Part shown: one piece after another, positions 51,222 to 56,369 of the stretch
Layout of the letters: each line of letters begins with the position of its first letter
Position numbering within the stretch: position 1 is the stretch's first letter
NCBI GenBank assembly: GCA_030681515.1
Contig: JAUXSE010000055.1
Coordinates: 1 to 64,000, forward strand
DNA length: 64,000 nucleotides
From: Geothrix sp.
GTDB taxonomy: Bacteria; Acidobacteriota; Holophagae; Holophagales; Holophagaceae
Direction of reading: 5' to 3'
Made by a program: the position numbers and the translations under genes
The notes under the pieces: model-generated
Seen by the model: the letters and a program-made list of their open reading frames with translations, nothing else
The model's database searches: none
Told to the model about the DNA's origin: nothing

Positions 51222-52244
51222 CTACTTAATGTTTTTCAGCGAAGGATCCTTCAGCATCTCCTTGATCTCAGAAGCTTTTTCGCCCGTGGGGGAGATCTCG
51301 AGGTACTTGAGGAAGTGCTGCCTGGTTCCCTTGAGGTTCATGTTGGAGTACTCGACCATTCCGAGCAGGTAGTGGGCCTTGGCGTACTGGGGATCCACCT
51401 CAAGGGCTTTCATCAGGTGGGCCTTGGCCTCCTTGGTCTTGCCATCGTTGAACGCGGCAACGCCCTTGTTGTAGATGACATCTACATTCGGTCCCTGCAG
51501 GGTCTCCAGCATGGCGGAGTACTTCTGCTCGGCGGCCTTATCGCCCTTGGCCTTGCTGGTCTCGATGAGCCCGGCGATCACCCGCTCATCCTTGGGGTTC
51601 CGTTCCAGGGCCTTCAGGAGGTAGGGCTCGCCGTCCTCTTTTTTGGTCCCGGCCTGGGCGAGGCAGATGCCCAGCACGCGCTCGATCTTCAGGATTTCGG
51701 GAGCCAGGTCAGCCTTGGCCTGCTCGTCCTTCAGCTTCTCCTTGGCCTCGACAAGGGTCTTGTAGGCCTTGTCCAGGTGGGGCAGGGCCTCATCGTACTT
51801 GCCGTCGTTGTAGAGCGGAATGGCGAGGTTGAAGGCATCGCGGCCCTCCGCATCCAGGATCTGTCCCGGATCCTCCGAGGCGACCGGGGTGCCGCCAGCC
51901 GGCACGGCCAGGGTACGGGCCTCCGCGGGGGTGAGGAGGGTGATGTTCTTGATGATGACATCCGCGAGGGGAACCTTGATCCGCTCCTGGTAATCCACAT
52001 AGCCCTCGGCGCTGGCGGTGAGATCGAATTCCTTGGGTTCCAGGCCAACCTGGAGGTAGTTCCCCGACTTGTCGGGGAACAGATCCTTGCTCCAGTTGCG
52101 GTCGGTGCGCTTGAGATTGACCTTGGCGCCGGGAACCGCCTTGCCTTCCTTGTTGAGGACCTTGCCGGAGATCCGACCGGTCTGTTCAGCCTGGATGGAC
52201 ATACAGGCCGCGGGGAGCAGCAGGGTGAGAATCAGACGTCGCAT
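51222..52244 (-). CDS. Exported carboxypeptidase-regulatory-like and TPR protein
   Basis: About 340 residues. Signal peptide (RRLILTLLLPAACMSIQA), then a carboxypeptidase-regulatory-like beta domain (TGRISGKVLNKEGKAVPGAKVNLKR, about 23-95), and TPR units in the C-terminal two thirds, for example AFNLAIPLYNDGKYDEALPHLDKAYKTL, YNKGVAAFNDGKTKEAKAHLMKALEVDPQYAKAHYLLG. Likely a periplasmic scaffold; no catalytic motif. GGAGGAAGAACC precedes the ATG at 52244. Confidence 0.85.
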   Translation of the reverse strand: MRRLILTLLLPAACMSIQAEQTGRISGKVLNKEGKAVPGAKVNLKRTDRNWSKDLFPDKSGNYLQVGLEPKEFDLTASAEGYVDYQERIKVPLADVIIKNITLLTPAEARTLAVPAGGTPVASEDPGQILDAEGRDAFNLAIPLYNDGKYDEALPHLDKAYKTLVEAKEKLKDEQAKADLAPEILKIERVLGICLAQAGTKKEDGEPYLLKALERNPKDERVIAGLIETSKAKGDKAAEQKYSAMLETLQGPNVDVIYNKGVAAFNDGKTKEAKAHLMKALEVDPQYAKAHYLLGMVEYSNMNLKGTRQHFLKYLEISPTGEKASEIKEMLKDPSLKNIK

Positions 52245-52430
52245 GGTTCTTCCTCCAAACCCATCCATCGTTCCACAGGGCTGCCCTGGCGCCGAGTGCT
52301 TTTCGTCAAGATCACGCCACGCGCGGGATTCTCCCCCCGCGGAGGGCCGCCTTCCCAGGCTGGGTGCAGGAAAAATCGGGCTGTGGTAGGCTTCCCGGCA
52401 GACAAGTCCTGAAAGCGTTCGAGGTAGCCC

Positions 52431-52718
52431 ATGAATCCAGCGGTGCCGGAAGCATCATTGACGGCCCTGATGCACCTCCTGACTGAACAGGCCTTGATGG
52501 CGCTGGGCGTCCCCCATCCGATGATGAAGGATGCGCCCCCGGCAAACCCGGTGGTGGCGCGGTTCTATGTGGATCTGCTCACCGTGCTCAAGGAAAAGAC
52601 CGAGGGGGCCCGGACGGATCCGGAGAGCCGCCAGCTGGATGAAATCCTGTACGAACTGCGCATGCGCGCGATGGACCTCCAGCCCGCCGCGGAAGCGCCT
52701 GCGGTCCCGAAGCCATGA
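52431..52718 (+). CDS. DUF1844 protein
   Basis: 95 residues. The helical core MHLLTEQALMALGVPHP, VARFYVDLLTVLKEKTEG and QLDEILYELRMRAMDL matches the DUF1844 family, small cytosolic proteins of unknown role found mostly in Acidobacteria, Deltaproteobacteria and relatives. Its stop overlaps the following gene's ATG as ATGA, so it is translationally coupled to the large membrane protein. See the finding on this trio. Confidence 0.85.
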   Translation: MNPAVPEASLTALMHLLTEQALMALGVPHPMMKDAPPANPVVARFYVDLLTVLKEKTEGARTDPESRQLDEILYELRMRAMDLQPAAEAPAVPKP

Positions 52719-54589
52719 GCGCGAGGAGGCTCGGCATGAGATTCTGGCGGACCGCATCCATGGCGGCCATGGCGGCACTGCTCGCGGCAGCCCCGGCCCA
52801 GGTTCCGGACCTTCCCGCGGCTCCGGTCCGGGCGGCGGCGGAAACGATCCCGGCCATCGCCCTCAGCCATCGGGTGCAGCATCTCATGGACGCCCTGGCC
52901 AAGGGGGATCCGGAGGCTGTCCGGGCCGCCCAGCTGGAAGTGGAGGCGCTCCGGCGCACCTACTCCACGTTGGACGTGGCCCCCCTGGTGGAAGCCATGG
53001 CCTTCTGGGCCCGGCAGCAGGGTGTGGCGGGCAAGGCGGCCCTGGGACTGGAGGGGCTCCAGGCTGTCGAGCGGTGGGCTCCCGATCATCCGACCCTGCT
53101 GGGTACGCGCATCACCCTCATGCGGGAGCAGGGGCTTCAGGGCTGGCTCTGGAGTTTCCCGGACCTGCTCCGGCTTACCAGGTTGCGCATGGAGAACCCG
53201 GCCCACCGCTGGCTCTGGCTGGTCCAGCATCTCGGCATGCTCCGGCTCGCTGCCACCCTCTTGCTGTGGGGATGGGCCCTGACCCTGGGATTGCGGTACC
53301 GGAACGTGCTCCGCCATTTGTGGGAGGAGCCGCTGAAACACCGGGGGCTCGCCCCCATCCTGACCGCCCTGGTGGGTGGGCTGGTATTGAGTGGGCCGGT
53401 CCTTCTGGGCCTGGATCCGATGGTCGCGGCCATGCTGTGGCTCGTCCTGCTGGCGCCGTTCCTGCACGCCGCCGAGGTCAAGGTGACGGCCTTCATCCTG
53501 GTGCTACAGCTGGTCCACCCCGCGCTGGGAGCCCTCGAGCCATGGGCCGCCCGGGAGCCGCGGCCCAGCCTGCTGACGCTCCAGTTGCAGCCCCAGGTGC
53601 ACCCGGTTCCACCCTCGGCGCTGCGGCTCCTGCCGCCCTCGGACCAGGCCTTCCTCGCCGGATGGACCCAGCTCCAGAATCAGGAATGGAAGGCCGCGGA
53701 GGCCTCCTTCCAGGGGCTGGTCGGGCGCCTTCCCGAGCAGGCGGAGGTGCTGAATAACCTGGGGGTGGCCCAATTCCAGTCGGGGGATGTCGCGGCTGCC
53801 GACCAGACGTTCACCCGGGCCCTCGCCGCGGGGCCAAAAATGGAAGTGCTTCTGAATCAGAGCATCCTGGCGTTCAACCGCCTGGATACGGCCCTGGGCG
53901 CCTCCAAGCGGGACGAGGCGCAGATCGCCGCGCCGGAGGCCTATGCGCTCCTGATCGCCCTGAACGATGCCCGCAAGGATGAGCGCACCTATCCGATGCC
54001 CCTCCCCGACACGCCACAACGGGTGCAGGCCCTGGCCGACGCTTCCGGAGAAGGGAAGAGTGCCGCAGCCTTCCATTTCACCGAACCGGCCTTTCTGGCG
54101 GCGCTGCTGATCCCGCTCCTCGGCCTCATCGCCTTTCTCGCCAGGGTGCGGGCCAGCGTCCGCATGGCCCATCCGACCCAGTGCATCCGCTGTGGGGAGC
54201 CCTTCCACACCACGGACAGCCCTGATTCGGAGGTCTGCCCCAAGTGCCACCATCTCTTCGTGCTGCGGGACGGACTCCATGCGGAGAACCGGCGCAAAAA
54301 GCTCGACGAGGTGGCGGACCATCAGCAGGCCACGCGCTGGATCCACAAAACCCTCCTCATTCTGCTCCCAGGCTGTGACCTCGCCTTCCTGGGGGAGACG
54401 CGGGAAGGGTTGATCGAATTCCTGCCCTTCTGCCTCGCGGTGGGCATGGTCCTCGCCACCGGGCGGTCCGTCCGCTATCCGGGCGAGATCCTCGCGGACC
54501 CCACCTCCACCTGGCTGGCGGTGGGCGCGGCGCTGGTGGGGCTCTTCTACCTTCGCTCCTGGCTGAAGCTGATCTTGAGGAGGGCCTGA
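52715..54589 (+). CDS. TPR membrane protein with zinc ribbon
   Basis: 624 residues, unrecognised as a whole. Signal-like N-terminus, helical region to about 160, three or four membrane helices (about 170-275), a soluble TPR-like part (AFLAGWTQLQNQEWKAAEASFQGLVGRLPEQAEVLNNLGVAQFQSGD, about 310-370), a membrane helix near 465, then a zinc ribbon CIRCGEP...CPKCHH (Cys490, Cys493, Cys508, Cys511) and two C-terminal helices. The zinc ribbon would face the cytosol. It sits between DUF1844 and DUF4388 genes with one- to four-base spacing. Confidence 0.78.
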   Translation: MSARRLGMRFWRTASMAAMAALLAAAPAQVPDLPAAPVRAAAETIPAIALSHRVQHLMDALAKGDPEAVRAAQLEVEALRRTYSTLDVAPLVEAMAFWARQQGVAGKAALGLEGLQAVERWAPDHPTLLGTRITLMREQGLQGWLWSFPDLLRLTRLRMENPAHRWLWLVQHLGMLRLAATLLLWGWALTLGLRYRNVLRHLWEEPLKHRGLAPILTALVGGLVLSGPVLLGLDPMVAAMLWLVLLAPFLHAAEVKVTAFILVLQLVHPALGALEPWAAREPRPSLLTLQLQPQVHPVPPSALRLLPPSDQAFLAGWTQLQNQEWKAAEASFQGLVGRLPEQAEVLNNLGVAQFQSGDVAAADQTFTRALAAGPKMEVLLNQSILAFNRLDTALGASKRDEAQIAAPEAYALLIALNDARKDERTYPMPLPDTPQRVQALADASGEGKSAAAFHFTEPAFLAALLIPLLGLIAFLARVRASVRMAHPTQCIRCGEPFHTTDSPDSEVCPKCHHLFVLRDGLHAENRRKKLDEVADHQQATRWIHKTLLILLPGCDLAFLGETREGLIEFLPFCLAVGMVLATGRSVRYPGEILADPTSTWLAVGAALVGLFYLRSWLKLILRRA

Positions 54590-54590
54590 G

Positions 54591-55760
54591 ATGGCACTGG
54601 AAGGATCCCTTCGGGACTTCGACCTCTTCTCCCTGTTCAACATGATCAAGATCCAGGGGAAGAACGGGACCCTGGTGCTCTCCCAGGGCCAGGAGTTCGT
54701 CAAAGTCTTCTTCGAGAATGGCGAGATCGTGGGATGCGATTCGAACCAGGTCCGCATGGAAGACCGTCTGGGCACGATGCTTGTGCGCCTGGGGCGCCTC
54801 ACGGGCGAGGAACTGCTGGCCATGGTCCAGGTGCAGCGCCAGACCCTCAAGCGCATGGGCACGCTGCTGCTGGAGAGCGGCAAGGTCGGGCCCTCGGACC
54901 TGCAGGATGCCCTCTTCGGCCAGGCCACGGCCATCCTCCACCGCACCTTCCGCTGGGTGGAGGGCGATTACCGCTTCGACTCCATGCTTCCGCCGGACCT
55001 GGACCGGGATCATTTCGTGCCGATTCCCGTGGATACGGTGTTGATGGAGGCCGCCCGCATCCAGGACGAATGGCCCGAGGTCGAGCGGCGCCTTCCGGGC
55101 ATGGACATCCCTCTCGGCAAGTCACCGCAGGCCCAGGCTCTGCATCTGGATATCAACCGCGATGTGTCGTTGCTTCTGGATGGCCGGGGCCATGTGCAGC
55201 AAGGGGCCTCCGGGCTCACGCACGAGCAGGAGATGGTGCTTTCCTACTTCGACCATCCCCAGAGCATCAACGACATCGTCCAGGTCAGCCGCTATGAGGA
55301 ACTGGACTCCTGCAAGGCCATCGCCGATCTCATCGAGGCCGGTCTTCTGGAACCGGTTTCTGGCGGTGCCCCGAAGGTTTTGCGCCCCTGGGTGATGGAT
55401 GGACACCCTGATCTCGTGCCCAGGCCATGGGAACCGAGTCCTTTCCTTTGGCTTCTGGTGGCGCTCGGATTCATCCTGCCCCTGGCCCTCTATGTGCCCC
55501 ACCATCGCGGGTCCATGAACATGGGCCTGGCCAGCCTCCAGCCCGTGGACGTGCGCGTGGTCCCCGAGGGGCCGACCCGCCTGCGGCAGGCCTGGGCCCT
55601 CCGGATGGCCGCGCCCAAGGACGGAGGTGTCATGCTGGCGAAGGAACTGGGTCGGCCCCTGGAAGGGAAGAACCCCGTCGCGGATCTGACCCGGCTTCCC
55701 GATCCGATGGCCCCACCTCCCGCGCCGCCCCCCGAGCCCGCCACCCCCTCCAAGCCATAA
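54591..55760 (+). CDS. DUF4388 (PATAN-like) membrane protein
   Basis: 389 residues. The N-terminal domain is DUF4388: LEGSLRDFDLFSLFNMIKIQGKNGTLVL and VFFENGEIVGCDSN. The middle continues with QRQTLKRMGTLLLESGKVGPSDLQDALFGQATAILHRTFRWVEGDYRF, typical of the same group. A single membrane helix (LWLLVALGFILPLALYVP, about 285-303) precedes a C-terminal tail ending in PMAPPPAPPPEPATPSKP, a disordered Pro-rich end. In other bacteria DUF4388 proteins act in gliding/two-component pathways; here the role is unknown. It starts one base after the TPR/zinc-ribbon gene. Confidence 0.82.
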   Translation: MALEGSLRDFDLFSLFNMIKIQGKNGTLVLSQGQEFVKVFFENGEIVGCDSNQVRMEDRLGTMLVRLGRLTGEELLAMVQVQRQTLKRMGTLLLESGKVGPSDLQDALFGQATAILHRTFRWVEGDYRFDSMLPPDLDRDHFVPIPVDTVLMEAARIQDEWPEVERRLPGMDIPLGKSPQAQALHLDINRDVSLLLDGRGHVQQGASGLTHEQEMVLSYFDHPQSINDIVQVSRYEELDSCKAIADLIEAGLLEPVSGGAPKVLRPWVMDGHPDLVPRPWEPSPFLWLLVALGFILPLALYVPHHRGSMNMGLASLQPVDVRVVPEGPTRLRQAWALRMAAPKDGGVMLAKELGRPLEGKNPVADLTRLPDPMAPPPAPPPEPATPSKP

Positions 55761-55769
55761 GGACTTCCG

Positions 55770-56369
55770 ATGTTCGTGCACCAGCGCCAGGGTTCCCTGG
55801 AGGTGATCTGCGGCCCGATGTTTTCAGGCAAGTCCGAGGAGCTCATCCGCCGCATCAAGCGGGCCATCATCGCCAAACAGAAGGTCCAGGTGTTCAAGCC
55901 GGCCCTGGACGATCGCTACGACGCCAGCGCCATCGCCAGCCATAGCCAGTGCAAGCACGACGCCATCCCCGTGAAGGACACGGTGGAACTGGCCCGGCAC
56001 CTGGATCCAGAGGTCGAGGTGGTGGCCCTGGACGAGGTCCAGTTCATGGACGAAGGCTTGATTCCCATCATCGAAGCCCTCGCCGACCGCGGCGTGCGCG
56101 TCATCGCCGGCGGCCTGGATCAGGATTCCAATGGCGAGCCCTTCGGCATCATGCCGCTGCTGCTGGCGAAGGCGGAATACGTCACCAAGCTCCAGGCCAT
56201 CTGCATGGTCTGCGGAGCCCTGGCGGGGCGAACCCAGCGCATGGTGCACACCGGCGGCCAGGTGCTGGTGGGCGCCGCCGAAGCCTACGAGGCCCGCTGC
56301 CGCCACTGCCACGAAGTGCCCCACGCCACGGGCCAGCGGCTGATCGAAGAGCCCGCCCAGGGTTCCTGA
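55770..56369 (+). CDS. tdk: Thymidine kinase
   Basis: 199 residues. Walker [19 protein letters not shown], Walker [12 protein letters not shown], and structural zinc cysteines in [16 protein letters not shown] and RCRHCHEV. It phosphorylates thymidine for salvage. It follows the DUF4388 gene by 10 bases and may be cotranscribed with it, though the link is probably incidental. Confidence 0.96.

Follow-up and report, generated by a model that had tools for sequence, protein, structure and literature searches.

A conserved gene unit of Acidobacteriota encodes a predicted inner-membrane c-di-GMP receptor with an MshEN-type motif inside a PATAN domain

The c-di-GMP-binding MshEN domain is typical of the motors PilB and GspE, and its published motif (Wang 2016, PMC5013675) comprises two 24-residue stretches separated by a 5-residue spacer. 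Binding can be lost from MshEN folds, as reported for PilF GSPII-A, and in PilF a leucine-type change in the opening residue of motif I goes with higher affinity (PMC11731258). PATAN regulators, which carry the DUF4388 domain, bind PilB1 in Synechocystis (PMC10519157; PMC9090330), and PATAN genes lie close to some MglA/MglB genes (PMC4316618). Here, we describe a three-gene unit of Acidobacteriota in which a PATAN domain and an MshEN-type motif occur in one protein. Our partial coverage of the literature found no report of PATAN/DUF4388 and MshEN in a single protein, or of the trio; the novelty of both is provisional.

The unit lies on the plus strand at positions 52431–55760 of a 64,000-nt stretch of Geothrix sp. 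DNA (assembly GCA_030681515.1, contig JAUXSE010000055.1), hereafter the window. An ORF check found there all three genes described in an earlier note on this DNA. The first (52431–52718) encodes a cytosolic DUF1844 protein of 95 amino acids and shares four bases (ATGA, 52715–52718) with the second (52715–54589), which encodes a 624-residue TPR/zinc-ribbon membrane protein, here TPR-Zn. The third (54591–55760) encodes a DUF4388 (PATAN) protein of 389 amino acids and starts after a 1-base gap (TGA-G-ATG) from the TPR-Zn end at 54589; the overlaps of one to four bases previously reported are thus confirmed at the first junction and replaced by a gap at the second. A thymidine kinase gene (55770–56369, plus strand) starts nine bases past the DUF4388 gene and may be co-transcribed with it; we dropped a functional link, as this neighbor is not conserved outside some genera. 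Upstream, the minus strand (51222–52268) encodes a divergently transcribed TPR protein with a carboxypeptidase-regulatory-like domain, which occupies the same place in most Holophagaceae loci examined.

Domain assignments and topologies largely bear out the earlier description of the three proteins. The DUF1844 protein matches PF08899 (52.3 bits versus a cut-off of 27) and lacks a TM helix, as expected of a small cytosolic protein. Hydropathy and an AlphaFold2 model (pLDDT 83.9) agree on the helices of TPR-Zn (res. ~168–278, 455–482, 564–584, and 603–621), predicting a signal-like N-terminus, an N-terminal helical domain, a TM cluster, periplasmic TPRs, a TM segment, a zinc ribbon on the opposite, cytosolic side, and two more TM helices. 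The TPRs of the window copy are weak (res. ~314–375; TPR_16 at 32.6 bits versus a cut-off of 32.7), and no Pfam zinc-ribbon model reached its cut-off in the window protein. Judged from sequence, both assignments are clear across the family: TPR_1 is matched by 27 of 29 relatives, and the four cysteines of the CxxC-x14-CxxC ribbon (CIRCG...CPKC, res. 490–511; 54182–54247, plus strand), C490, C493, C508, and C511, do not vary among 29 sequences that span several classes. A fold search with the TPR-Zn model gave generic repeat-protein matches only and was dropped.

The DUF4388 protein consists of a cytosolic PATAN domain with a helical insertion, a winged-helix region, a single TM helix, and a short proline-rich periplasmic tail; the membrane anchor and the tail agree with the earlier note. 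PF14332 matches residues 4–161 with 85.9 bits (cut-off 25), the TM helix (res. 281–305; 55431–55505, plus strand) is predicted from hydropathy, and AlphaFold2 gave a mean pLDDT of 76, with values of mostly 81–88 in the insertion region. The winged-helix region (res. 169–260), where HTH_27 matches weakly, shows similarity (Z about 8) to winged helices, including the N-terminal domain of MccB, a likeness that may reflect just a common fold. Together, these topologies suit a shared inner-membrane assembly. The term 'envelope-spanning', which the earlier note applied to the presumed complex, goes too far, because the two membrane proteins both seem to reside in the inner membrane and the unit encodes no outer-membrane part.

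What the earlier note missed is the nature of the helical insertion in the PATAN domain, whose sequence is that of a complete MshEN-type motif, predicted to bind c-di-GMP. The insertion repeats the published layout (res. 59–82 and 88–111; 54765–54923, plus strand), with RLGTMLVRLGRLTGEELLAMVQVQ and RMGTLLLESGKVGPSDLQDALFGQ joined by the spacer RQTLK, and carries the defining pattern RLGxx(LVI)(LVI)xxG..xxxxLxxxLxxQ twice at 5-residue spacing. Deviations in the window copy are the conservative V79 and M89 in place of two contact leucines, and R69 and K98 at the first of two hydrophobic positions after the glycine. NCBIfam flags residues 59–108 as MshE-related (NF053729, E = 1.9e-7) with 30.8 bits, short of the 38-bit cut-off, while orthologues from other lineages and classes score 48–61 bits and exceed it. 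A pattern search of the same genome found the full tandem motif in none of its paralogous DUF4388 proteins.

Conservation within the insertion follows the ligand contacts. Across 28 non-redundant DUF4388 orthologues, the 12 contact positions, as defined by Wang 2016 (PMC5013675), have a mean entropy of 0.49 bits, versus 1.70 bits for the other 41 insertion positions, and none of 100,000 random draws of 12 positions was as low. A profile of the orthologues finds PilF (9.5e-15), PilB (3.4e-9), and MshE (1.1e-8) in the PDB, all through residues 55–112. In the AlphaFold2 model, the insertion forms helices at residues 56–66, 72–85, 89–96, and 101–119, the predicted four-helix bundle expected of MshEN. 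The best Foldseek match is the GSPII domain of PilF (1.6 Å over 53 columns, probability 0.99), and VIA also ranks PilF and PilB first, with Z of 9.4–10 to PilB and c-di-GMP-bound PilF. We give most weight to the sequence evidence because the Foldseek E-value of 0.42 is weak. In one orthologue subgroup, motif I begins with leucine.

The motif was also compared with the distribution of GGDEF domains. The host genome encodes eight, and the tiny genomes that lack the trio have none but are reduced overall. One Holophagaceae genus retains the unit with an eroded motif, and its two more complete genomes encode 5–17 GGDEF domains; probable c-di-GMP production therefore does not always go with a retained motif, and the idea that motif loss tracks loss of c-di-GMP synthesis is unsupported.

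The gene order recurs throughout the phylum. Within the class, TPR-Zn was found in 83 of 93 genomes (a few matches being weak), DUF4388 in 87, a count that takes in paralogues, and DUF1844 in 54. Gene maps of 20 genomes, drawn with a simple ORF caller, show the TPR-Zn/DUF4388 pair in each of the three Holophagae families that these maps cover. The TPR-Zn ORF is immediately 5' of DUF4388 in 76 of 77 named loci, the remaining locus ending at a contig end. Beyond Holophagae, in a sample of 396 acidobacterial genomes, 84 of the 86 other-class genomes with both genes among the matches listed have TPR-Zn immediately before DUF4388 on the same strand; in the two others, the genes lie on different contigs or ~2.5 kb apart. 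The pair is not universal in the phylum, and many genomes have only weak generic TPR matches. A recurrence of this extent is more than chance, and it confirms the tightly packed unit that the earlier note had read from one sequence; scattering of the trio in relatives, named there as evidence against it, is not what we see. A plasmid search beyond the phylum returned one distant DUF4388 match. Two MAG records titled Deltaproteobacteria and Bacillota (L103 and L108) contain Holophagaceae-like copies of the unit (59–62% identity), so their titles are probably wrong.

The surroundings of the unit differ by lineage, and we dropped conserved neighbors as a functional clue. They include DnaK/Hsp20/DnaJ; a glycosyltransferase, YegS, and a DegP-like gene; LpxC and a HAMP/CheZ-like gene; and thymidine kinase. 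In Acanthopleuribacter-like loci (L039, L042, and L043), a second, shorter DUF4388 gene and the HAMP/CheZ-like gene separate LpxC from the TPR gene. In two families of the class, a gene of 200–270 amino acids with no Pfam match directly follows DUF4388 (L041:4672-5409 and L044:8863-9468).

The periplasmic tail of the DUF4388 protein differs between lineages. In orthologues of other lineages, 11 of 15 tails match the T2SSG domain (for example, 24.1 bits versus a cut-off of 21), and a profile of these tails finds GspG structures. In the window protein, a Pfam search gave no match to T2SSG (PF08334), and the tail (55506–55757, plus strand) is shorter and proline-rich, with no recognizable GspG-like domain. 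It is possibly a degenerate counterpart of that domain.

Computation shows that the gene unit and the binding-site residues are conserved, and it shows the domain architecture and a matching predicted fold; from these observations we propose that the unit is probably a phylum-wide inner-membrane c-di-GMP receptor module, built from DUF4388 and TPR-Zn and often accompanied by DUF1844 as a small cytosolic accessory. The steps that we infer, from ligand binding through protein–protein contact to signal transfer, would proceed as follows. The four-helix MshEN-type insertion of the cytosolic PATAN domain would bind one c-di-GMP, a strongly predicted step, and binding would alter the contact of PATAN with the cytosolic face of TPR-Zn, formed by the zinc ribbon and an amphipathic helix. 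The signal could then cross the membrane along the one TM helix of the DUF4388 protein and reach its periplasmic tail, which most other lineages have in a GspG-like form, while TPR-Zn would offer its periplasmic TPRs to an envelope partner. An envelope machine might respond, which is a lead only. The fuller scheme, a previously undescribed, phylum-wide transmembrane module whose PATAN-embedded MshEN passes the cytosolic c-di-GMP signal on to a GspG-like domain in the periplasm and to a dedicated TPR-zinc-ribbon partner, is a tentative proposal that we hold with somewhat less than even confidence.

Three other readings were weighed. The conserved unit could work together with an insertion that has lost c-di-GMP binding and persists as a structural or protein-binding four-helix bundle, much as reported for PilF GSPII-A (PMC11731258). 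The window copy under the NF053729 cut-off and the genus with an eroded motif in a retained unit would fit this, but conservation in the insertion peaks precisely at the ligand contacts, among them R, G, and Q residues for which a role in the core is not evident, and other-class orthologues exceed the cut-off; we consider lost binding quite improbable. Regulation by contact with a PilB/GspE motor, with type IV pili or type II secretion as the target and the cyanobacterial PATAN response regulators as the model, is rather unlikely in our estimate and would be a more specific form of the receptor proposal, not an exclusive alternative. Its appeal comes by analogy from PATAN–PilB binding in cyanobacteria, the position of PATAN genes near some MglA/MglB genes, the typical occurrence of MshEN in PilB/GspE, and the orthologue tails that resemble GspG, and not from gene context. 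Next to the unit there are no genes for pili or secretion. Genomes that have the pair and genomes that lack it are not distinguished by their T2SSE motor counts, and co-occurrence with T4P/T2SS motors was set aside on that ground. An output of this kind is a lead only.

The third reading concerns membership: DUF1844 may be an unrelated housekeeping gene that lies upstream by chance, leaving TPR-Zn and DUF4388 as one system. A single copy of the gene occurs in 340 of 396 acidobacterial genomes, and many of these lack the pair. Two families of the class and several Holophagaceae genera yielded no copy next to the pair, although a strongly diverged one may persist there. At ten loci from genomes without a strong pair match (L136–L144 among them), it is followed by a metallo-beta-lactamase-fold gene in seven and by RibF in six, with MazG often nearby. 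Set against this, in all 18 other-class genomes where both were among the matches listed, DUF1844 lies directly 5' of the pair and in its orientation, as it also does in Holophagaceae, and it overlaps TPR-Zn by four bases in the window. We regard the chance reading as doubtful, if a serious contender, and treat DUF1844 as a looser member. Conservation of the trio across Acidobacteriota, which the earlier note named as a check, stands for the pair and not strictly for DUF1844.

If the receptor proposal is true, DUF4388, the TPR-zinc-ribbon protein, and perhaps DUF1844, all uncharacterized families, would gain a shared function, and Acidobacteriota a predicted membrane c-di-GMP receptor that one binding assay could check. 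In one PATAN lineage at least, the helical insertion would then be a c-di-GMP-binding domain.

Three described systems come closest to the unit. It shares with the MshEN/GSPII domain of MshE, PilB, and PilF the two 24-residue motifs, the 5-residue spacer, the predicted four-helix fold, and the contact residues, but here they sit within PATAN, in a membrane protein that has one TM helix and no ATPase, and no MshEN C-subdomain is recognized. Like PatA, PixE, and PixG, the protein has a DUF4388/PATAN domain with a helical insertion; unlike them, it lacks a receiver domain and has a membrane anchor, a winged-helix region, a periplasmic tail, and a fixed TPR-zinc-ribbon partner. Finally, orthologue tails share the LP..L..L, DPWG.xY.Y, and DG features of the C-terminal domain (T2SSG) of the major pseudopilin GspG, a domain not recognizable in the window copy. 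Whereas GspG joins this domain to a pilin N-terminal helix, in the orthologues a TM helix links it to the receptor part in the cytosol.
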